A stretch of DNA of 49,259 nt from Oceanobacillus indicireducens (GTDB lineage Bacteria > Bacillota > Bacilli > Bacillales > Amphibacillaceae), in contig NZ_BMOS01000025.1 in the NCBI RefSeq assembly GCF_014647195.1, positions 1 to 49,259 of the forward strand. Reading direction: 5' to 3'. The notes under the pieces are model-generated. The model saw only the letters and a program-made list of their open reading frames with translations. It made no database searches and was not told where the DNA came from. The translations under genes and the position numbers were made by a program. Below, piece by piece: positions 23,189-47,617 of this stretch (positions are counted from its first letter, which is position 1; each line of letters starts with the position of its first letter).

Positions 23189-25765
23189 TTATTTTAGCTT
23201 TTTTTGGAGTTGATATAATGCATTCATTGCTTCCATTGGCGTCATTTCAAATAAGTTTAACTGTCCTAAGTCATCGATTACTTGCTGCTCTTTTTTTGTG
23301 AGCTTATTTTCTTTCTCAGGTGAATTTTCTTCAATAAAGAAGGAGAGTTGACCAGCTTCCATTCTTTCTGTGACCGGTTCATGTTCAGCACCCTCTTCCA
23401 ATTCTGTAAGAATCGCCGTCGCCCGTTCAATTAATGCATCTGGAAGTCCAGCGAGCTTGGCAACTTGAATTCCGTAACTTTGGTCTGCCGAACCTTCCTT
23501 AATCTGGTGAAGAAATACAACATTGCCCTCATATTCTTCCGCGCGGACATGAATATTCTTCAACCGTGGAAGGGTCTCTTCCATCGCAGTTAATTCATGA
23601 TAATGTGTGGAAAACAATGTTTTTGCTTCTATATTATGATGAATGTACTCTACAATCGCTTGGGCAAGTGCCATGCCATCATATGTACTCGTTCCTCTGC
23701 CTATTTCATCCAGTAGGATTAAACTGCGATCGGTCGCTTTTGCCAAAGCATGATTTGCTTCAAGCATCTCCACCATAAATGTACTTTGACCAGAAACAAG
23801 ATCATCAGCAGCACCAATCCGCGTAAAAATCTGATCGAATAGGAGCAAATCAGCTTCCTCACACGGTACAAAACATCCGATTTGAGCCATAATTACCGTT
23901 AGAGCGAGTTGCCGCATATACGTGCTCTTACCTGACATGTTCGGACCGGTAATTAATAGAATACTATTTTCGTTATCCAGTTGAACGTCATTCGGCACAA
24001 ATGTCCCCTCTGTCATTACTTGCTCAACAACTGGGTGGCGGCCATTTTTAATCGATAAATTCTCTCTCACAAAGCGCGGTCTTGTGTAATTATTTGCCTC
24101 ACTGACTGTAGCAAAGGACTGAAGCACATCAATCTGACTGATATGCTCAGCAAGTTCTTGGAAGAGTGGAATATGATTTTTCATTTTATCTCTAATTTCA
24201 ACGAATAAATCATGCTCCAGTTCGATACTTTTATCTTCTGCTTCAAGAATAATTGTCTCTTTTTCTTTTAGTTCTGGCGTGATGAACCGTTCGGCATTCG
24301 TTAACGTTTGCTTTCGTTCATATCGTCCTTCTGGTAAAAGATGTAAATTCGCTTTCGTAACTTCAATATAATAACCAAATACTCGGTTATATCCGATTTT
24401 TAGTGATCTGATGTTGGTTCGTTCTTTTTCTTTTTGTTCTAATTCTGCGATCCATTGTTTCCCATTTCGCGATGCATCACGGTATTCATCTAGTTGTGCA
24501 TTGTATCCATCTTTGATGATATCTCCTTCTGTGATCGATGCAGGCGGGTCATTCGTAATACTTTGCTCAAGCAGTGCAACGACTTCTTTAGGATAGGTAA
24601 GTTCATCTGCTAATACTTTCATTTCTTCATTTGGGAATTGATAGAGAACTTGTTTGATTTCAGGGATGTTTTGTAAGGATTGTTTCAACTGGATGAGATC
24701 GCGCGCATTTACATTCCCGTAAGCGATCCTTGCAGCCAATCTTTCCATATCATATACGGACTTCAACGCTTCTCTCAGCATGTCCCTTTCCATAAACCCG
24801 TTGTAAAATACTTCAACGATATTCAATCGTCTTTCAATTTCTGTTTTCGTTAACAGCGGTCGCTCGAGCCACTTTTTCAATGTACGAGAGCCCATTGCTG
24901 TAATCGTTTCATCGAGCACCCATAATAAACTGCCATGTTTCCCTTTTTTGATAATCGTTTCTGTTAATTCCAGATTACGTTTTGAAAACATATCGAGTGA
25001 TAAATAATTCTTTAATTCGATAACAGTTGCCTGTTGTAAATGGTCGAGTGAACGTTTCTGGGTCTGTTGAATATAGTTAAGCAACCTGCTAAAGGCTGTC
25101 ATTAGACGTTCGTCATTTAAATTCTCCGCTAAATCACGGTACTCCCCATTAAATGTAATCTCATCTTGATAAGATAACGTAATCTGTAACCTTTCTTTTA
25201 ATTGCGCTTGCAAATCCTCTTCTAAAGTGGAAGATATGACAATTTCTTTGATCGGCTGATTGTATAATTCATGAAGAACTGCTTCCCAGCCTGCTTCAAT
25301 GAGAGTTACACGGTTCTCTCCGGTCGATAAATCATTATAAACAACGACATAAGAGCCGTCATTGAAATGCGAAAGACTGCAGAGATAATTATTCTCCCCT
25401 TCATCAAGCATCGATTGCGACATAACCGTACCAGGAGTAATAATCTGAACGACCTCTCTTTTCACAACTCCTTTTGCTGTTTTTGGGTCTTCTACTTGTT
25501 CACAGATTGCTACTTTATAGCCTTTATCTATTAGTGTTTTTATATAGTTCTCCGCAGAATGATAAGGAACTCCGCACATTGGAATTGCTTCACTTTCACG
25601 CTGCGCGCCTCTTTTTGTTAATGTTATTTCAAGTTCTTGTGCCGCTTTAATTGCATCATCATAAAATAATTCATAGAAATCACCTAGGCGGTAAAATAAA
25701 AATGAATCTTGGTGAGCGGCTTTTATTCTTAAGTATTGTTCCATCATTGGTGTGTTCTTTGCCAT
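23189..25765 (-). CDS. mutS: DNA mismatch repair protein MutS
   Basis: This protein of about 858 residues recognises mismatches and recruits MutL. The mismatch-probing Phe-x-Glu is in GDFYELF near residue 35. The ATPase Walker A is [10 protein letters not shown], followed by [10 protein letters not shown] and [16 protein letters not shown]. The C-terminus has the beta-clamp-like motif QLNLF. The start at 25765 was chosen because GGAGG lies seven bases upstream; an ATG one codon earlier is possible, and a longer upstream extension lacks similarity to MutS. Confidence 0.97.
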
Positions 25766-25893: not shown

Positions 25894-25921
25894 ACTTTAG
25901 GTGTTTGCCATGCATAAAATG
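25894..25921 (+). promoter_or_regulatory. Candidate mother-cell sigma promoter of cotE
   Basis: CATAAAATG (25913-25921) resembles the sigma-K -10 (CATAnnnTA) and the sigma-E -10 (CATACAAT). AC at 25894-25895 lies 17 bases upstream, as a sigma-K -35 would. B. subtilis cotE has both sigma-E and sigma-K promoters. Confidence 0.4.
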
Positions 25922-25951
25922 ACTATGAAAAAAGAGGAGGTAAATACAGCT

Positions 25952-26527
25952 ATGTCTTTTCTAAAAAAAGATTATCGAGAAATCATCACTAAGGCAGTTA
26001 TTGGGAAGGGACGTAAGTTTACAAAGGAATTTCATACGGTTACTCCCCCAAACCGTCCCTCGAGCATTCTCGGGTGCTGGGTGATTAATCATTTATACCA
26101 CGCAAAAATGAAATCTACGGATAGTGTAGAAATAAATGGTAGCTATGAAGTAAATATTTGGTATTCCTTTAATGATAATACAAAGACGCAGGTCGTTACG
26201 GAAAAAGTAACATATCGTGATATTGTGCCCCTATCCATCAAAGATGAAAATTGCCTGAATGATGATTTCGATGTGATTGCAAAAGTGTTACAGCAGCCAA
26301 ATTGCCTAGAATGCAAAATTGAGAAAAAAGGAAATAAAATTAAAGTTGAGGTGGAAAGAGAATTTATCGTGCAAGTAATTGGCGAAACAAAATTACTCGT
26401 AAAAGTGGATCCGACTTGGGATGCAAATAAGGTGGAAGATGAAGACGATGATGAAGTGTGGGATCATGCCGTGACGGATGATGAATTAGAAGATGTCCAA
26501 ACAGATTTCATCCATACTAAAGATTAA
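25952..26527 (+). CDS. cotE: Outer spore coat morphogenetic protein CotE
   Basis: This 191-residue protein is CotE: start [23 protein letters not shown], the conserved [14 protein letters not shown] segment, and an acidic C-terminus with [11 protein letters not shown]. CotE forms the layer on which the outer coat assembles around the forespore and binds many coat proteins. The ATG at 25952 was chosen because GAGGAGG precedes it; earlier in-frame ATGs lack the family start. It diverges from mutS and is followed by structured element A. Confidence 0.96.
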
Positions 26528-26548: not shown

Positions 26549-26706
26549 TAAAGTGAAACTTCATTCAGTGGGGGGGATATCCTTATCTCCCCCACTGAAT
26601 GTTAGTTGAACAGAATCAGGTATTTACGGACTGTATATCCCCCACCCTCACATATTGGGCTTCCCTAATGTTTAGGGGTGGGGGTATTACAGACCGTTAA
26701 TACGTG
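26549..26706 (+). ncRNA. Structured repeat element, copy A (158 nt)
   Basis: Hairpin 1: CATTCAGTGGGGG (from 26562) pairs with CCCCCACTGAATG (to 26591), extended by GATA/TATC around a UCCU loop. Hairpin 2 is long: TTACGG-CTGTA (from about 26623) and ATCCCCCACCC pair with GGGTGGGGGTAT and TACAG-CCGTTAA (to 26700), enclosing TTGGGCTTCCCT. A second copy with compensatory changes is at 46420-46573. It follows cotE on the same strand. Whether it is an independent RNA, a 3' UTR element or a mobile-element derivative cannot be told; a distant link to IS200/IS605-type ends is one idea. Confidence 0.6.
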
Positions 26707-26708
26707 CT

Positions 26709-26744
26709 AAAAAAACCAAGCATAATAGATTGCTTGGTTTTTTT
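26709..26744. terminator. Bidirectional terminator between cotE and ricA
   Basis: AAAAAACCAAGCA pairs with TGCTTGGTTTTTT around a short loop. It serves the minus-strand ricA gene and could also end transcripts of element A. Confidence 0.92.
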
Positions 26745-26746
26745 AG

Positions 26747-27157
26747 CTATTTCGTTACTTTTGTACCTGTTTTGCCTTCTAGTACATTACCGCCTGTCCC
26801 TTCAATAATACGGTTTGTTACTTCTCTAGAAATTGTAGTAGATACAAGCTGTAAGACATCATTTACTGTCACTTGAAGTTCTTTGAATTCCGAAACGATA
26901 GGGATACCGTCCAACTCACTTTGTAAACGATCCAGTTGCTCTTCTACACGGGCTAATGCTTCTTTCTTATCATAAGCCTGCAAATTTACTGCTTGTTTTT
27001 GTAAAGCTTTAATCTTTGTAATCAGTGTTTGAATTTTTGTACTCGCATTTATTTTAGCTTCGAGTTCTTTAAAGCGGTCAATTTCTTCCGTATTTGCTAG
27101 CATGTCTGCCAAATTTTTTGCCGCGTCAAGTACTTCTTTCCTTGAATATTGTGCCAT
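26747..27157 (-). CDS. ricA: RicA (YmcA), RNase Y specificity-complex subunit
   Basis: This 136-residue helical protein is YmcA/RicA. With RicF (YlbF) and RicT (YaaT) it forms a complex carrying Fe-S clusters that directs RNase Y to specific mRNAs and affects competence, biofilm formation and sporulation. The alpha-helical core (KIQTLITKIKALQKQAVNLQ) belongs to the YlbF/YmcA family. It starts one base after the miaB stop, so the two are translationally coupled. RNase Y itself (rny) is encoded 4 kb upstream. Confidence 0.93.
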   Translation of the reverse strand: MAQYSRKEVLDAAKNLADMLANTEEIDRFKELEAKINASTKIQTLITKIKALQKQAVNLQAYDKKEALARVEEQLDRLQSELDGIPIVSEFKELQVTVNDVLQLVSTTISREVTNRIIEGTGGNVLEGKTGTKVTK

Positions 27158-46390: not shown

Positions 46391-46419
46391 TTTATTTTTC
46401 TTTTTTAACTTCTTTCTAT

Positions 46420-46573
46420 CACGTATTAACGGTCTGTAATATCCCCACCTTGAAACATGAGGGAAGCCCAACAGTGTGAAGTTGGGGATAAACAGTCCGT
46501 AAATCCCTGATTCGGTTCAACTAACATTCAGTGGGGAGGTAACGAATTCCCCACTGAATGAAGTTTCACTTTA
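46420..46573 (-). ncRNA. Structured repeat element, copy B (154 nt)
   Basis: The reverse complement matches copy A (26549-26706) over its whole length. Hairpin 1 is CATTCAGTGGGG/CCCCACTGAATG. Hairpin 2 keeps TTACGG-CTGT and ATTACAG-CCGTTAA as its base and encloses TTGGGCTTCCCT. In hairpin 2 the inner stem ACTT/AAGGT replaces ACCC/GGGT of copy A, keeping pairing. The first bases (TAA) are the asd stop codon. Like copy A it lies directly after a gene on the same strand. Confidence 0.6.
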
Positions 46574-47617
46574 TAACCAGTTATTATCAACGACAGATTG
46601 AGCGATTTGAACAGTATTTAAAGCCGCGCCTTTTACTAGATTATCGGAGACAATCCATAAATGGAAACCATTTGCCTTATCCGGATCTTTCCGTACACGA
46701 CCTACAAATACTTCATCTTTATCAGCTGATGATAACGGGGTCGGATAGACTTGTTTAGAAGGCTCATCCTGCAGGACAATTCCTGGAGCTGATTCGAGTA
46801 CTTTCCAAAGATCCTCTACCGTCACATCATCTTTATCAATTTCAATATATACACTTTCCGCATGGGATGTGAATACCGGTAGACGGACACAGGTTGCCGC
46901 GACTGATAATTCCTGATCATGAAGAATTTTCTTCGACTCATTAATCATCTTCCACTCTTCCTGTGTGTATCCTCCATCGGAAAATACATCAATCTGTGGC
47001 AATGCGTTAAAAGCAATTGGATAGTGCTTTTCCTCGGATCCTACCGGGAGTACGTTCGCTTCCATCTCTTTACCATTTACATATTGTTCTGTTTGCTTTT
47101 CCAGTTCGCTAATAGCATGATCACCGGCACCGGAAACGGCTTGGTAAGTTGAAACAATTATTCTTGAAAGACCAAACGTTTCTTTAATCGGGCTTAATGC
47201 AGCAACCATTTGAATCGTCGAACAATTCGGGTTAGCAATAATCCCTTTATGATCCTTAATGTCTTCTTTGTTCACTTCCGGTACAACTAAGGGCACACCT
47301 TCAGTCATCCGAAATGCACTTGTATTGTCAATGACAACTGCACCACGCTCTACCGCTTCATTTGCTAATGCTTTCGTTACGGATCCACCTGCGGAGAAGA
47401 GGGCAATATCAACTCCATTAAAACTTTCCGGAGTTGCTTCTTCAATCGTCTTCTCTTCTCCTTTAAATTCGATTGTTTTACCCGCAGATCGTTTTGAAGC
47501 TAATACTTTTAATTCATTAATCGGAAAATTTTTTTCTTCTAATATTTGTAATATTTTCTTCCCTACAGCCCCTGTTGCACCGACTACGGCTATATTGTAA
47601 GCATTTTTTTCTGCCAT
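46571..47617 (-). CDS. asd: Aspartate-semialdehyde dehydrogenase
   Basis: This 348-residue enzyme reduces aspartyl phosphate to aspartate semialdehyde, the branch point to lysine, diaminopimelate, dipicolinate, threonine and methionine. The NADP site GATGAVGKKILQ is at the N-terminus and the catalytic cysteine is in ANPNCSTIQM. It is co-oriented with spoVFA/B upstream (66 bp away) and dapG downstream, as in B. subtilis. Its stop codon is the first triplet of structured element B. Confidence 0.97.
   Translation of the reverse strand: MAEKNAYNIAVVGATGAVGKKILQILEEKNFPINELKVLASKRSAGKTIEFKGEEKTIEEATPESFNGVDIALFSAGGSVTKALANEAVERGAVVIDNTSAFRMTEGVPLVVPEVNKEDIKDHKGIIANPNCSTIQMVAALSPIKETFGLSRIIVSTYQAVSGAGDHAISELEKQTEQYVNGKEMEANVLPVGSEEKHYPIAFNALPQIDVFSDGGYTQEEWKMINESKKILHDQELSVAATCVRLPVFTSHAESVYIEIDKDDVTVEDLWKVLESAPGIVLQDEPSKQVYPTPLSSADKDEVFVGRVRKDPDKANGFHLWIVSDNLVKGAALNTVQIAQSVVDNNWL

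Follow-up and report, generated by a model that had tools for sequence, protein, structure and literature searches.

A 49,259-nt stretch of Oceanobacillus indicireducens DNA (contig NZ_BMOS01000025.1; here called the window) carries two copies, A and B, of a structured repeat of about 150 to 155 nt. We find that these copies are not a two-copy RNA but members of a real, widespread, mobile family of hairpin-bearing repeats, nearest in kind to bcr1 and to the ends-only derivatives of IS200/IS605. The repeat is present in high copy number, has sharp ends, is missing from orthologous sites, mostly leaves no target duplication, inserts directly beside ATAAA-like targets, carries two unlike subterminal hairpins with compensated base changes, and forms arrays. 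It is probably a non-coding, non-autonomous element resembling miniature inverted-repeat transposable elements (MITEs), moved as single-stranded DNA by an HUH/Y1-like enzyme acting in trans, in the manner of bcr1, palindrome-associated transposable elements (PATEs), and repetitive extragenic palindromic (REP) sequences.

A preliminary description of this region reported about 155 nt recurring at 46420-46573 in opposite orientation. Copies A and B align end to end and are 87% identical by blast, and the boundaries seen across the copies of the genome agree with these coordinates to the base; the window contains no third copy, its other matches being the palindromes of A and B themselves or having E > 1. 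The label "two-copy" does not survive a search of the whole genome. An 18-base right-end pattern, ACAGACCGTTAATNCGTG, matches the genome 111 times (52 forward and 59 reverse), with no match to the reversed control, and the retrieved loci yielded 88 distinct copies of full length. Blast searches for copies undercount them (40 of 208 and 40 of 213 first-look candidates were scored). Among 108 elements with both ends recognized, 88 measure 140 to 169 nt, 14 measure 45 to 48 nt, and 6 are intermediate. The 45- to 48-nt copies retain both ends, lack both hairpins, and probably arose by deletion between two GTGGGG repeats. The repeat also occurs in head-to-tail arrays; one (G000:C37:11569-12187, in the genome of origin) has four copies and a run of N inside the array. 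Two further forms lack hairpin 2 only, one in the same genome (L013) and one in Oceanobacillus alkalisoli (L208).

Across the genus, 26 of 28 Oceanobacillus genomes, this one included, carry the repeat (E <= 1e-5), as do 76 of 159 genomes representing 27 of the 46 genera of the GTDB family (E <= 1e-6; query, a copy from G025; five candidates scored per genome). Matches between genera are about 80 to 88% identical over the first 80 to 90 nt. One of these matches (L222, G139:C15, ~1274397-1274550) lies in a 3.15-kb stretch that is 99.4% identical to L005 (G000:C26), in a different genus. Either this stretch was transferred horizontally not long ago or one of the two assemblies is contaminated, and L222 is not an independent copy; other genomes with the same genus code as G139 also match the repeat. 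With two copies as queries, none of 72,556 plasmid records matched; a search of phages for the repeat gave no match, nor did a single 25-base pattern in viral contigs. Listings and abstracts of the open-access literature report no such repeat in Oceanobacillus or Virgibacillus. A candidate second subfamily covering only model positions 60 to 154 was dropped, its matches being the reverse strand of hairpin 2 aligned to itself.

The element consists of (A)TAAAGTGAAAC, hairpin 1, a conserved linker, hairpin 2, and CGTG, and is inserted directly 5' of a site resembling ATAAA; seen on the bottom strand, the insertion lies 3' of TTTAT. We compared the boundaries of 59 non-tandem copies. On the left, the flank shows no structure up to position -2 and then reads A(0.92)TAAAGTG; on the right, CGTG is followed by ATAAA at 0.78 to 0.90 per base. 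Among 53 clean copies, both pentamers are intact (ATAAA) in 27, the left is intact and the right deviant in 21, and the reverse holds in 4 (p = 9e-4), with one copy deviant on both sides by a shared variant. For TAAA alone the corresponding counts are 20 and 1 (p = 2e-5). Because TAAA on the left is near-invariant while the right flank varies, the left TAAA most probably belongs to the element, and the right ATAAA would be its target. By inspection, neither of the two ends, ATAAAGTGAAAC and CGTTAATACGTG, is the inverted copy of the other, and the repeat has no terminal inverted repeats.

Empty sites support these boundaries. We examined 11 pairs of empty and filled sites, of which 8 are readable at the junction; c11 (in G011), L176, and L246 are too diverged to read, and further candidate pairs (c46, L084, L243, and others) were left out. 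In O. alkalisoli, the site orthologous to that of copy A reads GCGGAGAG-ATAAAAAAACC with the element absent. At the mutS end the situation is reversed, with a short copy in O. alkalisoli where the window is empty (23193-23197). Five sites were compared among G025, G017, and G016, which are 86 to 93% identical there. The left arm is TAAA at L238 (empty form ATATG in two relatives, right flank ATAAG), at L174 (empty form ATAAA), and at L239 (empty form ACGAA). It is likewise TAAA at L171 (empty GAAAG, right flank GGAAA) and L172 (empty ATATA, right flank ATAGA), each read with an alignment ambiguity of 1 to 2 bases. A site between two genes that we take to be comF-like and yvyF-like agrees in the more distant G011. 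At most of the sites read, target duplication is absent.

These junctions bear directly on the possibility of a MITE mobilized by a DDE transposase with a 5-bp ATAAA target duplication. Such an element would fit the 27 of 53 clean copies flanked by ATAAA on both sides, and copy A with CTAAA on both sides. It would not fit the missing terminal inverted repeats, the contrast between a near-invariant left TAAA and a variable right flank, or the left end that stays TAAA even at sites whose empty form or right flank departs from ATAAA, and we regard it as very unlikely.

Both window copies had been described as folding into a short and a long hairpin, with C-G and U-G pairs changing to U-A between copies in the inner stem of hairpin 2, a hairpin 1 stem differing in length on both arms together, and a conserved loop, TTGGGCTTCCCT. 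Inspection recovers the pair changes, the joint change in stem length, and the loop, and the fold itself is strong: copy A reaches -88 kcal/mol as RNA, compared with -44.8 +/- 4.05 in shuffled sequences (z = -10.7; 0/200). Its bottom strand, folded with DNA parameters, also folds better than shuffles (z = -8.1). To these we added a family alignment (A3) of 41 copies from many genera, hand-picked for diversity and including the non-independent L222. The named structure is paired in 89.6% of cells across the 41 sequences, and the 12 pairs tested in hairpin 1 in 95.5%. Of the 34 pairs, 13 have changed on both sides, as have 65 cells, whereas sliding the partner by 1 to 3 columns leaves 6 to 14 such cells. 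The covariation score was reached by 0/500 shuffles and the number of doubly changed pairs by 1/500. Pair 78-167 is unsupported, being unpaired in 22 of the 41 sequences, and three more pairs are unpaired in 12 to 13. The linker between the hairpins, for which TGTTAGTTGAACNRAATC served as search pattern, is among the best-conserved parts of the family. An RNAalifold consensus of only 16 pairs, which lacked the outer stem of hairpin 2, was superseded by this explicit pair count on another alignment.

The covariation, whose absence from a larger alignment would have refuted the preliminary description, confirms that the hairpins are under selection. The earlier suggestion that the selected molecule might be an RNA finds no support for the top strand. 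Selection on a top-strand RNA should give more G-U than A-C, but in this test, which has no positive control, the counts are 41 versus 41 in the family alignment, 21 versus 17 in 15 relatives, and 34 versus 57 in 55 copies from the genome of origin (p = 0.02, opposite to the RNA expectation). The hairpins are therefore more likely maintained in DNA form or for the sake of the bottom strand.

A functional RNA, whether a small RNA, a stabilizer in a 3' untranslated region, or part of a terminator, could have spread because of that function. The strong covariation would be expected of it, many copies are located at gene ends, copy A lies between cotE and a terminator-like repeat, and intergenic bcr repeats are found within mRNA in two Bacillus cereus strains (84/165 and 62/155; PMC3446304). 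We nevertheless consider it improbable, and disfavor the new small RNA or 3' untranslated region class proposed earlier, given the G-U counts, copies scattered in both orientations (the 52 forward and 59 reverse right ends), sharp bounds, and empty orthologous sites. Rfam gave no match at gathering score over the whole window, and its sub-threshold matches look like chance. Bacillaceae-1 RNA (RF01690), considered for its loop motif, was rejected: its sole match (L231:2884-2952) does not overlap the copy in that locus (L231:1501-1653).

Copies are oriented unevenly relative to replication in two of the three genomes counted. In G070 and G080, complete genomes of another genus in which fork direction was taken from the position of dnaA, the top strand runs against the fork, which puts the bottom strand on the lagging-strand template, in 39/57 and 19/26 clusters, respectively (together 58/83; p = 3.8e-4). 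For these counts, two-mismatch matches were dropped and same-strand neighbors within 600 bases were collapsed. Apart from these two genomes, strand was counted in G025, and nine others with located copies were left out. Mean GC skew agrees with the replichores, and setting the fork by local GC skew gives 56/83. The bias persists where at least one of the two flanking open reading frames (ORFs) does not run with the fork (30 versus 10; p = 0.002), and where both do, the copies (28 versus 15) are no different from the rest. ATAAA and TTTAT are about equally frequent on the fork-direction strand, so target abundance does not explain the bias.

Two ways of moving the element can be compared. In site-specific recombination, as suggested for bcr repeats, a tyrosine or serine recombinase would join a circular form, through an ATAAA core, to a chromosomal ATAAA. 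Such a route agrees with the presence of ATAAA at either end and with head-to-tail arrays, but it predicts neither a lagging-strand template bias nor conserved, unlike hairpins near both ends. Insertions at sites other than ATAAA also retain the left TAAA, though coupling-sequence models could permit this; overall, we think recombination of this kind unlikely. In the single-strand mechanism that we favor, the bottom strand would become accessible on the lagging-strand template and be cut and joined as single-stranded DNA. An HUH/Y1-type enzyme supplied in trans would recognize the hairpins, and the two cleavage sites would be the CTTTAT end of the element and the TTTAT target. Insertion beside stop codons or terminators may spare neighboring genes, allowing a high copy number to be tolerated.

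Several observations weigh against movement by an HUH/Y1-type enzyme. A first Y1 scan of 32 loci with 30 Y1 places found none with the repeat's ends and one unlinked full copy (L110). Similarly, none of 52 Y1 loci, part of all Y1 matches, has both ends of the repeat; loose single-end motif matches occur in 12 of them. At E <= 0.001, 12 of the 76 carrier genomes have no Y1 match, and G070, complete and with 57 copy clusters, is among the carriers without a PF01797 match. The association between repeat and Y1 genes is weak (64/76 carriers versus 55/83 non-carriers; p = 0.011, uncorrected for phylogeny). Further, G025 shows no strand bias (4 against versus 5 with the fork, by hand count), and PMC7290912 reports that its 22 tnpA copies do not favor either strand. 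Finally, copy A, with CTAAA on both sides and ATAAA at the empty site, would on its own resemble a target duplication. The repeat may have amplified first and the Y1 genes then been lost; otherwise, a different enzyme is acting. As a tentative, less probable version of the latter, the mover could be an unrecognized single-strand-processing enzyme with no Y1, chromosomally kept and possibly host-encoded, that sustains one conserved element family-wide. Such a mobilizer would explain both the roughly 80 to 88% cross-genus identity and the 57-cluster genome without Y1.

Two Y1 loci deserve separate mention. L372 at first resembled a Y1 gene bearing the left end of the repeat but was rejected, the left-end fragments being short copies nearby. 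L032 (G000 C2:230352-230684) is a gene for a Y1 protein like the REP-associated tyrosine transposases (RAYTs) and is flanked by its own palindrome (GGGACA...TGACCCC type) at ~1097-1167 and 2228-2310; this palindrome is unrelated to the repeat, and the locus holds no repeat copy.

Elements of bcr1 are about 155 bp long. Compared by description only, our repeat shares with them the high copy number, non-coding and intergenic character, structure, and TTTAT motif of a MITE-like family with up to 130 copies per genome (PMC6542083 and PMC3446304). The bcr1 family is described as restricted to the B. cereus group and is reported on some B. cereus plasmids (PMC6542083), whereas our repeat occurs in Oceanobacillus and across 27 genera of its GTDB family, with no plasmid match for the two query copies. 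IS200/IS605 elements, as outlined in PMC6006769 and PMC7290912, have no inverted ends, cause no duplication, insert 3' of a tetra- or pentanucleotide, carry end hairpins, and use the lagging-strand template. PMC6006769 also describes for them a guide sequence, located 5' of the hairpin foot, that pairs with the cleavage site. With these and with the ends-only PATEs, the repeat shares absent inverted ends, a mostly absent duplication, a fixed target, subterminal hairpins, and a strand bias. It differs in that its hairpins are longer than the 20 to 25 nt given in PMC6006769, in that some carriers have no Y1, and in that the scanned loci, where tnpB was not searched for, yielded no tnpA with the repeat's ends. 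The earlier idea of a non-autonomous IS200/IS605 relative fits the insertion anatomy and strand bias, but the Y1 loci scanned hold no transposase with the same ends, and any kinship is putative. REP and REPIN sequences with their RAYT (TnpA-REP) are high-copy palindromic intergenic DNA thought to be mobilized in trans by a Y1 enzyme (PMC8266576). Our repeat is also high-copy, palindromic, and intergenic, but inspection of the consensus shows that neither hairpin has a GT[AG]G foot, and no copy lies beside the genome's own RAYT-like gene. PMC6006769 describes REPs as species-specific, in contrast to the 27 genera spanned here.

What moves bcr1-like repeats is a long-standing open question, and a family whose sequence and covarying hairpins are kept over 27 genera with no visible transposase offers a system in which to ask it. 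The repeat also accounts for structured intergenic DNA that is otherwise prone to false small-RNA calls in these genomes.

Table 1. Repeat copies, their parts, and neighboring features; positions are those of the window.
Feature	Position	Strand	Remarks
Copy A, full-length repeat	26549..26706	+	Between cotE and convergent ORF
Hairpin 1 of copy A	26562..26601	+	Arms CATTCAGTGGGG.../...CCCCACTGAATG; from fold
Conserved linker between hairpins	26602..26616	+	TTAGTTGAACAGAAT; from alignments
Hairpin 2 of copy A, including right end CGTG	26617..26706	+	From fold; helices 2 and 3 of covariation count
Target pentamer right of copy A	26707..26711	+	CTAAA; O. alkalisoli empty site is ATAAA
Terminator-like inverted repeat abutted by copy A	26709..26746	n/a	A-tract and T-tract; by inspection
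ORF taken to be cotE, neighbor of copy A	25901-26527	+	
Convergent ORF on other side of copy A	26747-27157	-	
Copy B, full-length repeat	46420..46573	-	
Leftmost TAA of copy B	46571-46573	-	Stop codon of ORF 46571-47617 (-), presumably aspartate-semialdehyde dehydrogenase
Pentamer right of copy B	46415..46419	-	ATAGA (target variant); left end of copy B is ATAAA
Empty site in window	23193..23197	-	CTAAA; O. alkalisoli (L208) has ~90-nt copy without hairpin 2 there
45- to 48-nt copies in genome of origin (G000)			L133, L150, L017, L066, L131, L154, L165
45- to 48-nt copies in G000, continued			L011, L018, L046, L118, L123, L134, L152

The surroundings of the copies are asymmetric (Table 1). The TAA of the repeat itself closes the upstream open frame in 9 of 57 copies, compared with 3 for the other two registers together. 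An A-rich flank (>=7 A in 10) is present on the right of 19/59 copies and on the left of 2/59. Hairpins starting within 22 nt are found at 22/59 right and 11/59 left ends versus 25/295 shuffles, and those with a T-tract within 22 nt at 7/59 and 2/59 versus 1/295; a terminator-like neighbor such as that of copy A is also seen at some other copies. Terminator-like T-tracts are also directly followed by an IS200-like Y1 element from the same genus (L094, L095, L110, L111), which thus has a target of the same sort as the repeat; by inspection, the ends of this element differ from those of the repeat. The name cotE for the ORF beside copy A follows the preliminary description and is presumptive; its protein is 96% identical to that of O. 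alkalisoli and 83% to that of Oceanobacillus luteolus. A diverged copy of the repeat is also found at L210 (885-1026, minus strand) together with a cotE 69% identical to the one in the window, in a record titled Roseburia sp. 1XD42-34; the record name is probably wrong and the organism Virgibacillus-like.
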